This document shows positions 29,219 through 44,945 of a DNA stretch of 64,000 nt, in pieces. The notes under the pieces were generated by a model. It made no database searches. It worked only from the letters and a program-made list of their open reading frames with translations, and had not been told where the DNA came from. Origin of the DNA: Planctomycetaceae bacterium (GTDB lineage: Bacteria; Planctomycetota; Planctomycetia; Planctomycetales; Planctomycetaceae); NCBI GenBank assembly GCA_021732415.1, contig JAKFVC010000030.1, positions 1-64,000 on the forward strand. The letters run 5' to 3'. Each line of letters starts with the position of its first letter. Position 1 is the stretch's first letter. A program made the translations under genes and the position numbers.

Positions 29219-31012
29219 CTAAGCGTCGCGACGAGGTCCTCGGCGAGGCCCACGCGGTCCGCGATCTCCGCCGCCACGGGGGCCGCGGTCGTTGGCGGGA
29301 CCACGGTCGCCGGACGAACCGGCTCGGTCACCACCGCTGCTGCCTGATGCTCCTTCGACCAGCGACGGATTCAACAGGTAGGAAATCGCCTCTTCCCACG
29401 AAGGAACGTCTTCGTAGCTCACCAGAGGTTCCGGCTCGCCGTCATCCTCTTCGTGCTCTTCATCGTCTTCTTCGTCAAGGTGCGTCGCTCGCACTGTCGG
29501 CGTGCGAGACGAGGAACGGCCTCGGCGGCGCGGGCGGGGCGGTTCGTCTTCTTCCACGAACTCACGGTCGCGGTCTTCGAAGAAGGGATCGTCCGCTTCG
29601 AGAACTTCGTCTTCCTCTTCTTCGTCATCGAATTCGGGTTCAGAGCGTGCCGCAGGCGCGGGTGCCGGTGCGGGGCGCTCGGTACGTTCGCCACCACGGC
29701 CACCGCGACGTCGACGACGCGGTCGACGAGCACGACCGGGACGGCTCCCTTCGGCACCTTCCTCGTCACCCGCACCTTCTTCGGTGGAGGCTTCTTCGCC
29801 TTGTTCGTCGTCCTGCTCGGGGGCAAACGAATCGTCTTCCAGTTCCTTGATGTCCTCGTCAGCCGACGATTCGACTCGGGCAGCGGTCGGGCGATCAGGA
29901 CGGCGGCGACGACGGCGGCTGCGACGACGGCGAGGTTGGCCTTCCTCGTCGGTCGATTCGGGAGTTCGTTCTCCAGCCTCGGTGACATCGTCTTCGAAGT
30001 CATCATCCAGATCATCAGCGGCTGCTGACCGCGAACGGGGCTCATCGATTTGCGATGAACGTGGCGTCTCGCGAGCAACCGGTTCAGCGGGCCAGCCGTC
30101 GTCAATGGACTCTTCTGCGGGTTCGCTATCGAACGCAGCTTCGGACGCGGGCTGTGCCGGTGACGAACTGTGGCGACGTGAACGGCGACGGTCCTGGCGA
30201 CGCGACTTCACTTCTGGCGTCGCTTCTTCCTGGCCAATCGGCTCCTGGTCGAGCTGGGGTGCTTCGGCTACCTGATCGACAGGCAGGGCTTCTTCCGTCC
30301 GACTACGATCGCGGTCGGCGGGTGAACGGCGGTGGGCCGAGTGTGGTCGCTCTTCTGCGGCGGGCCGAGCTTCACGCGGTGCCGAAGGAGGTGACCGGCG
30401 TTCGCTGTTGCCAGCACTGCTTGGACTACGACCACGGTCACCGCCGCGCGGGCTCCTTGAGTCGCCACGTCCCGCTTGACGGGGCCGGTCGCGGCTGGAA
30501 TCGCCACGCGGTTTGCCCGAGCGATCGTCTTCCTGCCAATTCCAGTTGGCCAACGCATCCCAGTAGGGATCGTCTTCCGGCGCTACGGCTTCGACTTCAT
30601 CATCCAATTCATCGTCATCAGACGCTTCGTCGAGATCTTCGTCGGTCGCGCTGTCATCGAATCCGAATTCCACTGCGGGAGGCGGATCGATTTTCGTGGC
30701 CTTCACCGGCTCAGTCTCAGGAGCCTTGGCGGCCGGTTTGGCTCGCGGTGCGGGTGGTTTCGGTTTGGCCGGCGCACGACGCGGTGCAACGGGGGCGGAT
30801 TCCACCAAGCCCGCACCGAAATCTCCGAAGTCGTCTTCCTCTAAGGGTTTAGCGACGATCACATCGGACGGTGAAGGAACATCCGGAGCAGGCTCAGAGG
30901 CCACTCGTTCGGCGGCTGTATATTCTTTGCCAACTTCGACGCCGAACAGATCGGCCTCGAGTTGTTCCCAAGAATCGTCACCACCGGAGCTATTTGTAGG
31001 GTTTCGTGTCAT
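29219..31012 (-). CDS. Large intrinsically disordered, charge-block protein with RG-rich end
   Basis: The 597-residue product is almost wholly low-complexity. Acidic tracts (DEDLDEASDDDELDDEVE) alternate with very basic ones (RRRRSRRRRRRP, RRPRRRRRGGRGG), with Pro/Ala linkers, and the C-terminus is rich in RG/RGG-like repeats (GDRGPRGGGDRGPRGPRRGPRR). Two short ordered islands can be seen: SWEQLEADLFGVEVG near the N-terminus and VPSWEEAISYLLNPSLVEG near residue 545. There is no signal peptide. RG-rich and charge-block sequences often bind RNA or drive condensates; that is an inference, not a match to a family. A hairpin follows the gene, and the reading frame is clean for 1.8 kb. Confidence 0.75.
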   Translation of the reverse strand: MTRNPTNSSGGDDSWEQLEADLFGVEVGKEYTAAERVASEPAPDVPSPSDVIVAKPLEEDDFGDFGAGLVESAPVAPRRAPAKPKPPAPRAKPAAKAPETEPVKATKIDPPPAVEFGFDDSATDEDLDEASDDDELDDEVEAVAPEDDPYWDALANWNWQEDDRSGKPRGDSSRDRPRQAGRGDSRSPRGGDRGRSPSSAGNSERRSPPSAPREARPAAEERPHSAHRRSPADRDRSRTEEALPVDQVAEAPQLDQEPIGQEEATPEVKSRRQDRRRSRRHSSSPAQPASEAAFDSEPAEESIDDGWPAEPVARETPRSSQIDEPRSRSAAADDLDDDFEDDVTEAGERTPESTDEEGQPRRRRSRRRRRRPDRPTAARVESSADEDIKELEDDSFAPEQDDEQGEEASTEEGAGDEEGAEGSRPGRARRPRRRRRGGRGGERTERPAPAPAPAARSEPEFDDEEEEDEVLEADDPFFEDRDREFVEEDEPPRPRRRGRSSSRTPTVRATHLDEEDDEEHEEDDGEPEPLVSYEDVPSWEEAISYLLNPSLVEGASGSSGGDRAGSSGDRGPANDRGPRGGGDRGPRGPRRGPRRDA

Positions 31013-31367: not shown

Positions 31368-31958
31368 ATGTTGGAAGTTACGCAGCAGCCCCGACACTAC
31401 CTGTTGACTTGGACGGGTTGGCGGCTGGAGTTTTCCTGGCAGACAGATCGCTGGCAGCATCAACTGTGGCGTGCCAGTGGTCGAGAATGGACGCTGGCCA
31501 TTTCGTCCGTGGAGGGGACTTCTGAGCAGCCCTGGCCCGGCAGTCCCGCCTTTCAGAACGTCTATTACGAACAAATTGATCCGGATATCGGTGAGGTGCA
31601 GTTACTGGGTCAATCAGGCAAGAACCACTATTCCGGCGCGATTCGCTGTGATTCACGCCAGCAGATGATTGATTTTGATCTGGCGGTCCGTATTCAGGCG
31701 CATCCCGCAGGTCCTTTGCAACTCAGCACTTATGATGTGATGTCCCCCTTGGCGCGCGATGCTGCCGCGCAGGGTTGGGAGCTGACGACCGAATCGTTGT
31801 CGGCGCAACCTGCGCTGGTGACGGCCTGGGATGTCTCGACACTTCCGAAGAAATCGAGCTTCAATTTGCGGATGCTCGATCTGACCGGCGTGAAGATTGA
31901 GAAGCAACGCACGACGCTACGCTGGAAGTATCAGTGGTGGTTGAAACCCGTCGCTTGA
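31368..31958 (+). CDS. Conserved hypothetical protein, 196 aa
   Basis: I do not recognise the family. The protein is Trp-rich (about 11 Trp) and looks like an all-beta fold (HYLLTWTGWRLEFSWQTDRWQHQLW, STYDVMSPLARDAA, LRWKYQWWLKPVA), with no signal peptide or membrane segment. Codon use is like that of its neighbours. It starts with an ATG about 100 bp after the TRI8 repeat and seems to be monocistronic. The repeated W-x-W pattern could mean a ligand-binding beta barrel, but this is only a guess. Confidence 0.65.
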   Translation: MLEVTQQPRHYLLTWTGWRLEFSWQTDRWQHQLWRASGREWTLAISSVEGTSEQPWPGSPAFQNVYYEQIDPDIGEVQLLGQSGKNHYSGAIRCDSRQQMIDFDLAVRIQAHPAGPLQLSTYDVMSPLARDAAAQGWELTTESLSAQPALVTAWDVSTLPKKSSFNLRMLDLTGVKIEKQRTTLRWKYQWWLKPVA

Positions 31959-32130: not shown

Positions 32131-32883
32131 ATGTCCTTCGAAACAGTCGAGCGTCTGAAGCGTGAATTCACTGACAAGTGGGTGACAGTTGATGCCGGGA
32201 CTCCGGAATTGAAACGCTTTGTCGGGCTGAGTGGCCACATCAAGACGGTCAACATGAACGGCCGGGCGCTGGTCCAATTTGATAATCCGGTGGATATCAG
32301 TTGGTACGACATTGACCTCTCCTACCTGAAGGTGATCGCCGCCCCGTTGCCGAAAAAGGGGGCTGAAAAGCACGCCGAACCGGCTGCGAAGAAACCCGCT
32401 GCGGCCGCACCCCCTGCTGCAGCCGCCCCGGCCTCGGCAGCAGTTCCCGGTGCCGCGAAAAAGAGCCCGATCGAAATCATGCGTGAGGCCGCTGCAGCGA
32501 AAGCGGCCGCGGCTGCTGGTGGTGCTGCTGCACCCGCCGCGGCGGCTCCCGATGCCCCTAAGAAGACGCCGATCGAGATCATGCGCGAAGCTGCCGCTGC
32601 CAAAGCCGCTGCGGCCGCTGGTGGGGCTGCTGCTCCCGCTCCCGCGACGGACAAGCCGCTATCCAAAATCGAACAGGCCCGTCTGCAGGGAGCCGCAGGC
32701 AAGGCTAAGGCTGAAGTGGCCGCCCCTGCCCCTGCTGCCGAGCCGGTAGTGGCTGCTGAGGCTGCTCCCGCCCCCGCGCCGGCTGCGGCACCCGCCGCGC
32801 AGGTGACGATGGTTGGCGAAGATGGCAAGCCGCTGTCGAAGCTGGAGATGGCTCGCCGTCAGGGTGCCCAGAAGAACAAGTAG
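32131..32883 (+). CDS. Ala-rich repeat protein with N-terminal KOW/SH3-like domain
   Basis: The 250-residue product starts with about 70 ordered residues (VERLKREFTDKWVTV, GLSGHIKTVNMNGRALVQFDNPVDISWYDIDLSYLKVI) that read like a small SH3/KOW-type barrel. The rest is Ala/Pro-rich with two near-identical blocks around IEIMREAAAAKAAAAAGGAA (about 112-175) and a short motif PLSKxExARxQGA that appears twice, the second time at the C-terminus. The repeats may be a flexible tether with conserved docking points. No signal peptide. I do not know its function; similar N-terminal domains occur in other planctomycetes as far as I recall. Confidence 0.7.
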   Translation: MSFETVERLKREFTDKWVTVDAGTPELKRFVGLSGHIKTVNMNGRALVQFDNPVDISWYDIDLSYLKVIAAPLPKKGAEKHAEPAAKKPAAAAPPAAAAPASAAVPGAAKKSPIEIMREAAAAKAAAAAGGAAAPAAAAPDAPKKTPIEIMREAAAAKAAAAAGGAAAPAPATDKPLSKIEQARLQGAAGKAKAEVAAPAPAAEPVVAAEAAPAPAPAAAPAAQVTMVGEDGKPLSKLEMARRQGAQKNK

Positions 32884-40973: not shown

Positions 40974-42149
40974 ATGAAAGCGAATCCTGGCGGCAGTATT
41001 GACCCGCAGAATGTAGTGGGTCGCGATCGCCTCATTGAACAGATCTGGAACACGCTGGAAGGGCAGAGCGTCATCCTGACTGCTGAGCGACGCATTGGGA
41101 AAACCTCCGTGATCAAGAAGATGCAGGCGGAGCCGCGGGCGGGGTCTCATCCTGTGTTTCAAGATCTGGAAAGTGTCCACTCGCCGGAAGAGTTTGCCCT
41201 GTTGGTTTACGAAAAAGTGCAGAACTTCTTGGGGCTGTGGAAACGGGTGGCGAACAGTGCCCAACGCTTCTTGCAGGAACACCGCATCGAAGCGGCCGGC
41301 GTTGCGCTGGAGGCACACGGCACTCGTCACTGGAAAGGTTTTTTAGAACGATCGATCGAGGACCTGACGAATGCCCGTGGCCAGCAGCAACTCGTGTTCT
41401 TCTGGGACGAGTTCCCCTACATGCTCGACAACATCTGGCAGCGGGAAGGGGCTAAGTCGGTTGGGGAATTGCTCGATACGTTGCGGGCCCTGCGGCAAAG
41501 TCATCCGTCGTTTCGCATGGTGCTGACTGGATCCATCGGCCTGCATCACATCCTGGCGCGGCTCAAGGCCGATGGGTATCGGAATGCACCGTTCAATGAC
41601 ATGCTCAAAATTGAGGTCCCGCCGTTGGACCTGGTGGATGCTCAGCAGTTGGCACAGCGATTGATTGAGGGGGAACAGTTGGTCTGTCCCGACATGGGTC
41701 GTGCGACGGCTGCCATTGCGTTTCTGGTCGATGGGTTTCCCTACTACATTCACCACATCGTCCGCGAACTCAAGAACCGGCGCAGCGTCGTGGACCCGGA
41801 TAAAGTGCTCGCGATCATTGAGCATTTCACTCAGGATGCGAGCGATCCGTGGAATCTGACGCATTATCGCGACCGTATCGGCGACTACTACCCGAACCCC
41901 GAGGATGCGACCGCGGTGCGTTTGATCTTGGACACGGTGGCGTCGCACGCAGGGCCGCTGGAACTCTCGCAGTTGATGGCCGAGTTACAGTCGCAGACCT
42001 CGGTGCTCGGTTCGCGGGACCGTGTGCTGCAGTTGTTGCGGATGCTGGAACTGGATCATTACATCACACATCACGGCGATCGGTCGTATGACTTTCGGTT
42101 TAGTTTGATTGAACGGTGGTGGAGGCATGATCGGGACTTGAGCCCGTAA
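40974..42149 (+). CDS. STAND/archaeal-type AAA ATPase with winged-helix C-terminus
   Basis: The 391-residue product is a P-loop ATPase of the ATPase_2/STAND type. Walker A is AERRIGKTS (37-45), Walker B LVFFWDEF (140-147) with Asp145/Glu146. A sensor-1-like VLTGSIGLHHIL comes after it, and then a lid and winged-helix-like region (LDTVASHAGPLELSQLMAELQSQTSVLGSRDRVLQLLRMLELDHYITHHG). There is no TPR or other sensor repeat and no clear effector domain. STAND ATPases act as switches in signalling and immunity. It is the first gene after the nested repeat cluster; its neighbour is a second ATPase of the same general class. Confidence 0.85.
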   Translation: MKANPGGSIDPQNVVGRDRLIEQIWNTLEGQSVILTAERRIGKTSVIKKMQAEPRAGSHPVFQDLESVHSPEEFALLVYEKVQNFLGLWKRVANSAQRFLQEHRIEAAGVALEAHGTRHWKGFLERSIEDLTNARGQQQLVFFWDEFPYMLDNIWQREGAKSVGELLDTLRALRQSHPSFRMVLTGSIGLHHILARLKADGYRNAPFNDMLKIEVPPLDLVDAQQLAQRLIEGEQLVCPDMGRATAAIAFLVDGFPYYIHHIVRELKNRRSVVDPDKVLAIIEHFTQDASDPWNLTHYRDRIGDYYPNPEDATAVRLILDTVASHAGPLELSQLMAELQSQTSVLGSRDRVLQLLRMLELDHYITHHGDRSYDFRFSLIERWWRHDRDLSP

Positions 42150-42383: not shown

Positions 42384-44945
42384 ATGGCTGAAACACGACA
42401 AATCTGGCGATTCACTCCTAGTCGAACGGAACCTGCCGTTCTGGAGACGATCTTCGTTCAGCGGCAGAATCTGTTGACGGACACGCTGGATCAAATCCGC
42501 GATAGCGCGACGACGGGCGATAAACATCACCTCTTGTTCGTCGGGCCGCGCGGCATCGGGAAGACGCATTTGCTCTCGCTCATTCGGCATCGTGTGAATG
42601 CTGATGCCACCCTGCGAGACCGCCTGCGCGTCGCCTGGTTGAATGAGGATGAAACGAGCACCTCGTTTCTGGAGTTGCTGGTTCGGATCTATCGTGCCCT
42701 GTCGGCGGGATATCCGACACAGTTTTCCGAACAGCATCTGCAAGAGACCTTCAATCGCCAGGCGGCGGACGGGCAGCGATTTCTCGAACAGCAGTTGTTG
42801 CATTGCCTGGGTGACAACACGCTGTTGCTGCTGGTTGAGAATCTCGATGAGTTGTTCAAGGGATTGGGAGATGCGGGGCAGAAGGCGTGGCGAGCTTTCC
42901 TGCAGGAGCATCCGATCGCCTGTCAGATCGCGACGTCGCAAAGTTTGTTCGCCGCGATCTCACGCCGCGCGACGCCGTTTTTTGGATTCTTTTCGGTTCA
43001 TCATCTGCAGCCGCTGACCGTCACCGAGGCCCAGGCGCTCTTATTGAAGATCGCACAGCAGGCAGGGAATGAGACTCTGGTTGCCTATTTGCGGACTCCG
43101 GAAGGCCGTTCGCGTGTGCGGGCCCTGCACCATCTGGCTGGCGGCAATCATCGAGTGTATGTAGTGCTTGCTGAGTTCATCGATCGTGATTCGCTGGATG
43201 AACTGGTGGGACCGTTTGAAGAGATGGTGGATGGTCTCACGCCGTATTATCAGGAACGATTACGTTGGCTGGCGCCCCAGCAGCGGCGCATTATTGAGTT
43301 GCTCTGCACGCAGAAAGAACCGCTGGCGGTGAAGGAGATTTCGCGGCAGTTGTTCTCGAAAGAGCAGACGATTGCCAGCCAGTTGAAGAAGCTGAAGCAG
43401 TTGGGGTATGTGAATTCATCCCCACGTGGTCGCGAGTCTCTCTACGAACTGACCGAGCCGTTGATGCGGTTGTCGTTTGAGGTGAAAGAGAACCAGCGTG
43501 AGCCGTTGCGGTTGATCGTTGACTTTCTACGCGTGTGGTATCGCCCCGAGCAACTGCAGACGAAGCTGGCTCAGGCGATTACTTCTTCAAGCCCCACGCG
43601 ACCGCATTTGCAGGCGGCGGTGTCGCGCGGCGGGCAGTCGGATCTGCGGTTGGAGATGCTCGAGCGGGATATCAGCACGGCTCAGGAAACACAGTCGTGG
43701 GAAGAGATCGTCACCGCAATGGAAGAGCGGGCCCATGTGCGGGGGACGGCGAATGACTGGTTCGAGTTGGGGAACGCTCAGGATGAGATCTTGCGGTTTG
43801 CCGACGCGGTGGCGAGCTATGACAAAGCCCTGGCGATTGATTCCTCGCTGGCGTACGTCTGGAATAATCGTGGGAATTCGCTGGCGGATATGAATCGGCA
43901 GGCAGAGGCGTTGGAGAGTTATGACAAGGCGATTGCCCACATTCAGGATGACGCGTTCTTGTGGAACAATCGGGGCAACCTGTTGTTCAACATGCGGCGT
44001 TATTCGGATGCTCTCGTCAGTTGTGATCGGGCGATTGGGCTTGATCCGAATCTGGAGGCGTCGTGGAACAATCGCGGTAATGCGCTGTATCAGATTGGTC
44101 GCTATACCGAATCGCTGGAAAGCTACGATCGGGCATTGGCGATCACTCCCGAGTTTGCCCTGGCCTGGAACAATCGCGGGAGTGCCCTGGAGAGCTTGGG
44201 GCGTTATGAGGACGCGCTCGAAAGCTACGAAATCTCGCTCACGATCAACCCGGCTGATTCGGATGCCTGGAACAATCGCGGGACGGCGTACTTCAAATTG
44301 AATCGAATTCCGGAAGCCTTGAAGGACTATCAGCAAGCCTTGGAGATCGACCCGCAAAACTGCGGAGCCTGGAACAATCAGGGGGACGCGTTGCTCAATA
44401 CGGGGTATTTCGTGGAGGCCTTGGCGAGTCTCGACAGGGCCATCGCGTTGGATCCGCTGGGTGCCTACCCGCACATGAATCGGGTGGAGGCGCTGTTGGG
44501 ACTGCGGAAATGGGATGCGGCGTTTTCCGCGTTGAAGACCGCCTTGGCTTCGACCTGGCCGAATGCGGAATCACACGCGGGTGATATTGTCGGCATGCTG
44601 AAGGGGGTGCTGGCGGGGAGTGAAGAGGCGGCGGCCCGCAAGGAACGCGTCGTGCGGCTGGTCAATCACTATCGCGATGCGGGGTTGATTTCGTATTTCG
44701 CCGAGGGGCTCGTGCGCAGCCTGAAGTTCTGGAAGAGTTCCATGTTCAACCACAAGGTGCTCGACGAGTGGCGGCTGTTGTGGCTGGAGTTGAAGGACCA
44801 ATATCCCGGATTGGAGCTGGCCATTCGGCTGTTTGATGCGGGGTCGCGGTACTTGATGACGAATGACGAACGCGTGTTGCTGGACTTGATCGCGACTGAA
44901 CGTGAGATCGCGCGGCAGGCGTTGGGGTTGGTTGCGGAACGCTGA
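42384..44945 (+). CDS. STAND ATPase with winged-helix and TPR array
   Basis: An 853-residue protein with three parts. The ATPase has Walker A VGPRGIGKTHLL (53-64) and Walker B LLLVENLDEL (149-158). A winged-helix region (about 305-375: IIELLCTQKEPLAVKEISRQLFSKEQTIASQLKKLKQLGYVNSSP) follows. A run of about eight TPRs (about 455-735) with the repeating WNNRGN motif comes next, then a helical C-terminal domain of about 110 residues that I do not recognise. TPRs usually bind a partner protein. The start MAETRQIW is preceded by a 234-bp repeat-filled gap after the first ATPase gene, so co-transcription is not certain. Confidence 0.88.
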   Translation: MAETRQIWRFTPSRTEPAVLETIFVQRQNLLTDTLDQIRDSATTGDKHHLLFVGPRGIGKTHLLSLIRHRVNADATLRDRLRVAWLNEDETSTSFLELLVRIYRALSAGYPTQFSEQHLQETFNRQAADGQRFLEQQLLHCLGDNTLLLLVENLDELFKGLGDAGQKAWRAFLQEHPIACQIATSQSLFAAISRRATPFFGFFSVHHLQPLTVTEAQALLLKIAQQAGNETLVAYLRTPEGRSRVRALHHLAGGNHRVYVVLAEFIDRDSLDELVGPFEEMVDGLTPYYQERLRWLAPQQRRIIELLCTQKEPLAVKEISRQLFSKEQTIASQLKKLKQLGYVNSSPRGRESLYELTEPLMRLSFEVKENQREPLRLIVDFLRVWYRPEQLQTKLAQAITSSSPTRPHLQAAVSRGGQSDLRLEMLERDISTAQETQSWEEIVTAMEERAHVRGTANDWFELGNAQDEILRFADAVASYDKALAIDSSLAYVWNNRGNSLADMNRQAEALESYDKAIAHIQDDAFLWNNRGNLLFNMRRYSDALVSCDRAIGLDPNLEASWNNRGNALYQIGRYTESLESYDRALAITPEFALAWNNRGSALESLGRYEDALESYEISLTINPADSDAWNNRGTAYFKLNRIPEALKDYQQALEIDPQNCGAWNNQGDALLNTGYFVEALASLDRAIALDPLGAYPHMNRVEALLGLRKWDAAFSALKTALASTWPNAESHAGDIVGMLKGVLAGSEEAAARKERVVRLVNHYRDAGLISYFAEGLVRSLKFWKSSMFNHKVLDEWRLLWLELKDQYPGLELAIRLFDAGSRYLMTNDERVLLDLIATEREIARQALGLVAER

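Follow-up and report, generated by a model that had tools for sequence, protein, structure and literature searches.

Stand-alone gene and features of its product

The window, that is, the whole 64,000-nucleotide stretch of a Planctomycetaceae bacterium contig (JAKFVC010000030.1) analysed here, carries on its minus strand an ATG-initiated open reading frame (ORF) whose translation gives a 597-aa protein and which occupies exactly positions 29219-31012 (Table 1). A genome search identified one copy in the 9.87-Mb genome of this organism. A frame broken in close strains had been named in the preliminary description as grounds for abandoning its proposal; in all three congeners compared (G001, G002, and G003) it is open and intact. 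Differences at the first, second, and third codon positions numbered 35/21/177 between the window and G003 (148 synonymous and 57 non-synonymous codons) and 83/45/277 between the window and G002, and the stand-alone gene is therefore a real gene under purifying selection. Since these differences are concentrated at codon position 3, the minus-strand frame is the one under selection, and the plus-strand ORFs overlapping it are most likely shadows. Among named genomes, matches were found in a Planctomycetaceae MAG (88% identity, best segment) and in a MAG filed as Planctomicrobium piriforme (75%).

Table 1. Coordinates of the stand-alone gene and of the features of its product (positions in the window; residues of the protein).
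Feature	Position	Strand	Basis or remark
Stand-alone charge-block protein, 597 aa	29219..31012, including stop codon	-	ORF; single copy; frame kept in three congeners
M1, N-terminal W island, residues 11-28, GDDSWEQLEADLFGVEVG (= DSWEQLEADLFGVEV)	30929..30982	-	Predicted helix 14-23
M3, residues 58-71, EEDDFGDFGAGLVE (= DDFGDFGAGLVE; FGAGLVE)	30800..30841	-	Core F[GAS]xG[LIV]..[DE]; position counted from translation
M2, residues 147-160, DDPYWDALANWNWQ (YWDALANWNW)	30533..30574	-	Predicted helix 149-155
Arginine tract 1, residues 360-372	29897..29935	-	Sequence
Arginine tract 2, residues 429-441	29690..29728	-	Sequence
Arginine-rich tract 3, residues 491-503	29504..29542	-	Sequence
M5, C-terminal W island, residues 531-548, VSYEDVPSWEEAISYLLN (= VPSWEEAISYLL)	29369..29422	-	Predicted helices 539-547, 549-552
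RG-rich basic C-terminal tail, residues 567-597	29222..29314	-	Translation

The protein contains 26.0% D/E, 13.6% R, and 1.8% K, and its charged residues are arranged in 12 alternating blocks, where 2000 shuffled sequences average 2.8, with a standard deviation of the 15-residue net charge of 0.300 (shuffle mean 0.161, shuffle maximum 0.215), a pattern far beyond what composition gives. Acidic and basic stretches, with the arginine tracts among them, fill the interval between M2 and M5. In addition, 13 RG dipeptides were counted, 4 of them within RGG, and 6 of the 13 lie in the last 30 residues. RGG-box RNA-binding proteins, by comparison, have clustered RGG repeats, and RGG tails are clearer in members from families f9, f11, and f16 (families are labelled f1-f21, f1 being that of the window) than in the window protein. 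The charge-block, RG-tailed protein initially described at this locus is thus borne out.

An AlphaFold2 model built from a 12-sequence alignment gave a pLDDT below 50 in 485 of the 597 residues (mean 45), and the protein is predicted to be almost wholly disordered. Helices of at least 4 residues were predicted only at 14-23, 149-155, 539-547, and 549-552, which correspond to three islands, in agreement with the earlier idea of conserved, docking-type islands within an otherwise disordered protein. Of the two ordered islands first proposed, both are present as written, but the helical islands number three and are accompanied by a fourth motif, M3; neither M2 nor M3 was on the initial list. Searches returned no Pfam family for the window protein at E ≤ 0.1, no PDB sequence at E ≤ 0.01, and no Pfam match for four other family members at E ≤ 0.01.

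Family conservation and distribution in the class

Across 12 aligned species, identity to the window protein was 62% in the columns of M1, M2, and M5 and 26% in all other columns, so that the islands are kept in orthologues, as had been anticipated. Invariant columns among 12 f1 members, including the window protein, comprise W15, L18, D21, L22, G24, W151, L154, P537, W539, and I543. A DNA pattern of M1 alone, too strict to recover every member, matched in 15 of 101 family genomes (reversed control, 0). Of the 84 f1 genomes, 70 were shown to carry the gene by a match at E ≤ 0.01 to a profile built from M1, M2, and M5 (A2); a second profile (A4), built from the longer M5 that other families have, detected it in f5, f7, and f9-f21. 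In members from these latter families, one or two W motifs are found at the N-terminus (e.g., NHWQSLADQLGA and GDWDALAGELGV), R tracts are present in most cases, and at the C-terminus a motif resembling HRNIPTWxxAIxxIVxxNMEARxxxP precedes an RG-rich tail.

Of the 297 class genomes searched, 165 belong to families with a short RNase E, and the stand-alone gene was detected at E ≤ 0.01 in 143 of these (f1, 73/84; f5, 24/35; f7 plus f9-f21, 46/46). Among the genomes left over, 11 each from f1 and f5, a reading of weak matches showed the gene to be present in 9 and 4, respectively, bringing the total to 156 of 165, and 7 of the 35 f5 genomes had neither the gene nor an RNase E insert by the searches used. 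The search was loosened to E ≤ 2 for 13 genomes (the 11 f1 negatives, G013, and G029), and the loosest threshold for the insert-bearing families f2, f3, f4, and f8 was E ≤ 0.05. In these four families the raw count at E ≤ 0.01 was 1 of 131 (G122), and all six matches considered, G122 with an E value of 0.0075 and five others with 0.018-0.043, proved on reading to be unrelated frames, leaving the gene in 0 of 131 genomes. Furthermore, a phylum sample of 294 genomes, class members included, gave 21 matches, of which the 4 outside the class (G341, G463, G575, and G606) were unrelated frames with 4-7% D+E. Judged by these profile searches, the stand-alone protein forms a family at the level of the class, to which no Pfam or NCBIfam model corresponds.

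RNase E architecture

The organism encodes its own RNase E separately, as a frame of 545 aa on a different contig (C132). RNase E/G (PF10150) was detected in 38 of 40 relatives and in 283 of 297 class genomes, and the idea that RNase E is missing and replaced by the stand-alone protein was consequently rejected. Four genomes carry the stand-alone gene with no PF10150 match (G012 and G045 from f1, G263 from f18, and G323 from f15); because 10 of the 131 insert-family genomes also lack a match, these cases are perhaps assembly gaps, or else a real loss of RNase E. The supposition that genomes without RNase E would also be without the stand-alone gene was discarded, since G045 and G012 both have it.

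The RNase E open frame spans 525-649 aa in f1 (23 of 84 genomes listed), has a median of 1128 aa in f2 (37 listed) and 924 aa in f3 (42 listed), and spans 956-998 aa in f4 (3 listed) and 656-930 aa in f8 (5 listed), the longest among those listed being 1476 aa. For the insert families, frames are listed for 85 of the 131 genomes and 77 of them reach at least 730 aa, while some others end at contig ends; for the other families, with 42 of 82 frames listed, only G130 and G153 reach this length. These two and G118 were considered as exceptions and set aside, as their S1 inserts are only 63-77 aa and the extra length, where traced, lies before the protein start.

In f2, f3, f4, and f8, the extra length is a disordered insert inside the S1 domain, after GFLH, of about 170-820 residues (loci L051-L060, L147-L151, and L215-L234). 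Its size was measured as the S1 gap from GFLH to GPTLST, and insert status, measured on sampled proteins, was assumed for their whole family. The gap was 187-658 aa in 14 of 14 measured proteins of these families (the region covered for a fifteenth, from G030, ending too early) and 267-824 aa in 19 of 20 further f2 and f3 proteins, with none found in the twentieth. It was 51-116 aa in 22 of 22 measured proteins of other families, and 63-78 aa, by a slightly different measure, in three more. In the RNase E of G027, the S1 model match ends at position 38 of 74, where the insert starts, and AlphaFold2 assigns the insert a pLDDT of 30-42 nearly throughout; in this model of an f4 RNase E the insert stays unordered, and there is no sign of M3 docking in cis.

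The sole f6 genome (G029) had no stand-alone match at E ≤ 2 and no long insert. Its RNase E (L061:2053-4197) combines a short S1 loop with a 312-residue tail, against 103-147 residues elsewhere. The tail, after the catalytic core, is rich in S, R, T, and A.

Over the 297 genomes, the stand-alone gene and the RNase E S1 insert are mutually exclusive across families. On a tree computed from the catalytic parts of 37 RNase E proteins, two changes are required to account for the insert label, and f2, f3, f4, and f8, with f6 inside, stand on one branch (support 93/88). The switch between separate gene and insert is thus nearly a single evolutionary event and not many independent tests, so that a P value over genomes would be meaningless.

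Motifs in common with RNase E inserts

The M3 core is common to the window protein and to the RNase E S1 inserts of f2, f3, and f4. Specifically, it was identified in 11 of 12 f1 stand-alone proteins (11 copies; local-shuffle mean 0.20), in 12 of 12 f2 inserts (21 copies; 0.21), in 3 of 3 f4 inserts (6 copies; 0.09), and in 6 of 13 f3 inserts (15 copies; 0.17), and it was found in none of 21 short S1 loops and none of 4 f8 inserts. The sets comprised 12 f2, 13 f3, 4 f8, and 3 f4 inserts, leaving out G030 and G125 (f2) and G274 (f8), for which the pattern gave no S1 gap. Only 1 of 13 stand-alone proteins from outside f1 has the core, these being drawn from 29 non-f1 loci and representing f5, f7, f9, and f20, with f11, f13, f14, and f16 left out; by eye, one more M3-like sequence was seen in f11 (L122). 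The core had been loosened after the f2 inserts were read, and its presence in 12 of 12 of them is to some extent a post hoc result, even though the shuffled controls were scored with the identical pattern. A stricter, acid-preceded form occurs in 12 of 12 f1 proteins, in 3 of 3 inserts each of f3 and f4, and in 3 of 10 further f3 inserts, and it misses the RFGEGL motif of f2 (0 of 3 inserts, then 4 of 9). A strict M3 DNA pattern matched at 7 places in the organism's own genome (reversed control, 1), none of them inside a comparable protein.

Tracts of six or more arginines are present in 12 of 12 f1 and 10 of 13 other stand-alone proteins, as well as in 11 of 12 f2 and 2 of 3 f4 inserts; they were found in 0 of 13 f3 inserts and are not shared with f8 inserts either. 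M1, M2, and M5 are not recognisable in the RNase E inserts. A W-x-E-L pattern resembling M1 occurs in 4 of 12 f2 inserts (shuffle mean 0.36), which may reflect homology or convergence with M1. With M3 in common and a distribution that mirrors the absence of the RNase E insert, the likeness to RNase E tails suggested in the preliminary description proves to be more than an analogy.

As a separate observation, f2 inserts repeat a conserved RFGEGL..DE and present a RAGEPGY(V/I)PRRER motif just before the R tract.

Gene neighbourhood

The stand-alone gene does not adjoin rne, which in the organism's own genome is on another contig. In the genus of the window it adjoins a ThiF/MoeB-type gene. By a hand tally of the 51 f1 genomes with scanned flanks, many of them short, a thioredoxin-fold gene lies upstream in 25 and a UPF0004/radical-SAM gene downstream in 9. 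Neighbours vary between lineages, and the neighbourhood was therefore rejected as a functional clue.

Other genes of the window were also recorded. Divergent from the stand-alone gene, a 196-aa protein (31368-31958, plus strand) without Pfam matches is kept in G002 and G003 at 85-88% identity. The region at 32131-32883 (plus strand) encodes a 250-aa protein with an ordered N-terminal stretch and a long Ala/Pro-rich tail containing the repeats KKSPIEIMREAAAAKAAAAAGG and KPLSKIEQARLQGA; it has no Pfam match, and G002, G003, and G060 likewise encode relatives of it close to the stand-alone gene. Further along, an 853-aa protein (42384-44945, plus strand) with AAA-like and ArsR-like HTH segments and many TPR matches is, by its layout, probably a STAND-like regulator, and is preceded by a frame with a weak AAA match (40974-42149, plus strand).

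Discussion

RNase E scaffolds combine long disorder, arginine-rich alternating charge blocks, and conserved short motifs within the RNase E polypeptide itself, and they bind RNA, PNPase, a helicase, or other decay enzymes. The window protein presents the first three, with disorder by prediction and M1, M2, M3, and M5 as motifs; any such binding would be a prediction from the shared motif and the distribution. As the organism's own RNase E is a distinct polypeptide that does not include it, the window protein cannot strictly be called a scaffold domain of RNase E. Its design is nevertheless scaffold-like and its presence mirrors the absence of the insert, and we therefore propose a trans-acting degradosome scaffold. 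Whether the stand-alone protein is indeed a disordered degradosome or RNA-condensate scaffold, doing in trans what the RNase E arm does in cis, we judge to be evenly balanced. In the mechanism that we infer, the arginine tracts and the RG tail would gather RNA, the acidic and basic blocks would let the scaffold self-associate, with or without phase separation, and the helical islands M1, M2, and M5, together with M3 (FGxGL), would dock partner enzymes of RNA turnover, the partner being most likely RNase E itself and/or an associate such as PNPase. In planctomycetes with a short RNase E S1 loop, the separate gene would provide this scaffold; one clade no longer has the separate gene, and there the disordered S1 insert of RNase E would do the job in cis, as a functional equivalent or a homologue of the trans form.

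In the Caulobacter RNase E tail, arginine-rich charge blocks are described as driving RNA-stimulated condensation (PMC10412687), and the composition of the window protein is compatible with RNA-stimulated phase separation. Like the C-terminal scaffolds of RNase E in Caulobacter BR-bodies and in the Pseudomonas and E. coli degradosomes, the protein has predicted disorder, arginine-rich charge blocks, and short docking-type motifs (PMC10412687, PMC11964227). Unlike them, it is encoded by a separate gene and bears other motifs, and docking is here putative; moreover, the disordered RNase E arm of related planctomycetes interrupts the S1 domain, whereas the known RNase E scaffolds are C-terminal. 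In cyanobacteria, the Arg-rich C4 region at the very end of RNase E is reported to bind PNPase (PMC10989914). By analogy, the arginine-rich sequence of the window protein could be a PNPase dock, although C4 belongs to RNase E and the window protein does not. A separate, lineage-specific RNase E partner has a parallel in RebA, a protein that binds cyanobacterial RNase E (PMC10783494); the resemblance, drawn by description, is to a candidate partner in our case, and RebA, unlike the proposed scaffold, is described as an RNase E inhibitor.

Several observations count against a degradosome scaffold in trans. The switch is nearly a single transition on the RNase E tree, M3 is missing from most stand-alone proteins outside f1 and from f8 inserts, the gene is unlinked to rne, and the four gene-bearing genomes noted above are without a PF10150 match. 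All these would suit an RNA-gathering scaffold of another process, such as ribosome assembly, translation, or transcription termination, in which case the loss of the gene in the insert clade would be coincidental and FGxGL a generic sticker that arose repeatedly. The seven f5 genomes with neither gene nor insert, the f3 inserts devoid of R tracts, the lack of recognisable M1, M2, and M5 in inserts, the loosening of the M3 core, and the f4 insert left unordered by AlphaFold2 weigh further against our proposal. However, M3 is present in 12 of 12 f2 inserts, 3 of 3 f4 inserts, and 11 of 12 f1 proteins, at no less than 50 times the shuffled rate, and f6, the family without both gene and insert, bears a long RNase E tail; both points argue for a link with RNase E, and a scaffold of another process seems to us unlikely, though not far-fetched.

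A binder of the nucleoid, polyphosphate, or another polyanion, whose R tracts and tail would coat DNA or polyphosphate, with binding kept in check by the acidic blocks and a structural partner recruited by the islands, is quite improbable: arginine tracts and a basic tail would suit any polyanion, but no Pfam family, and so no DNA-binding domain, was detected, acidic residues exceed basic ones (26.0% D/E against 15.4% R+K), and the distribution mirrors RNase E architecture. Finally, neither a polar organiser of the PopZ kind nor a low-complexity frame devoid of function can readily be entertained. The NCBIfam PopZ model (NF052660, E 0.05), rejected as an identity, matched residues 443-546, which are mostly acidic linker, with a score of 14.9 bits where the cut-off is 125, and a functionless frame is excluded by motif conservation and codon-position bias.

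A further step may be considered, to which we give somewhat less than even credence: a two-gene planctomycete degradosome, with a free disordered hub that in one clade was lost and rebuilt as, or moved into, a giant disordered loop in the S1 domain of RNase E. In such a system, nature would have exchanged a condensate scaffold between cis and trans, and this in a phylum formerly scored as lacking a degradosome-forming RNase E. In this context, a 2011 survey gives planctomycete RNase E homologues of 509-588 aa with no degradosome potential (PMC3071783); against this, we found that the RNase E frame reaches up to 1476 aa in some families and that others have a conserved, separately encoded candidate scaffold. 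A literature search limited to titles and the beginnings of abstracts returned no description of the stand-alone protein or of the planctomycete RNase E insert; the insert is not claimed to be unpublished, and the likeliest place for it is the classification of RNase E homologues that Ait-Bara and Carpousis published in 2015.

In brief, a class-wide family without a matching Pfam or NCBIfam model gains testable motifs. If the proposed role is true, planctomycetes would organise RNA decay via a detachable scaffold, which would offer a natural comparison of cis and trans condensate hubs and would make it possible to test cleanly whether tethering to the nuclease is essential for a degradosome scaffold.
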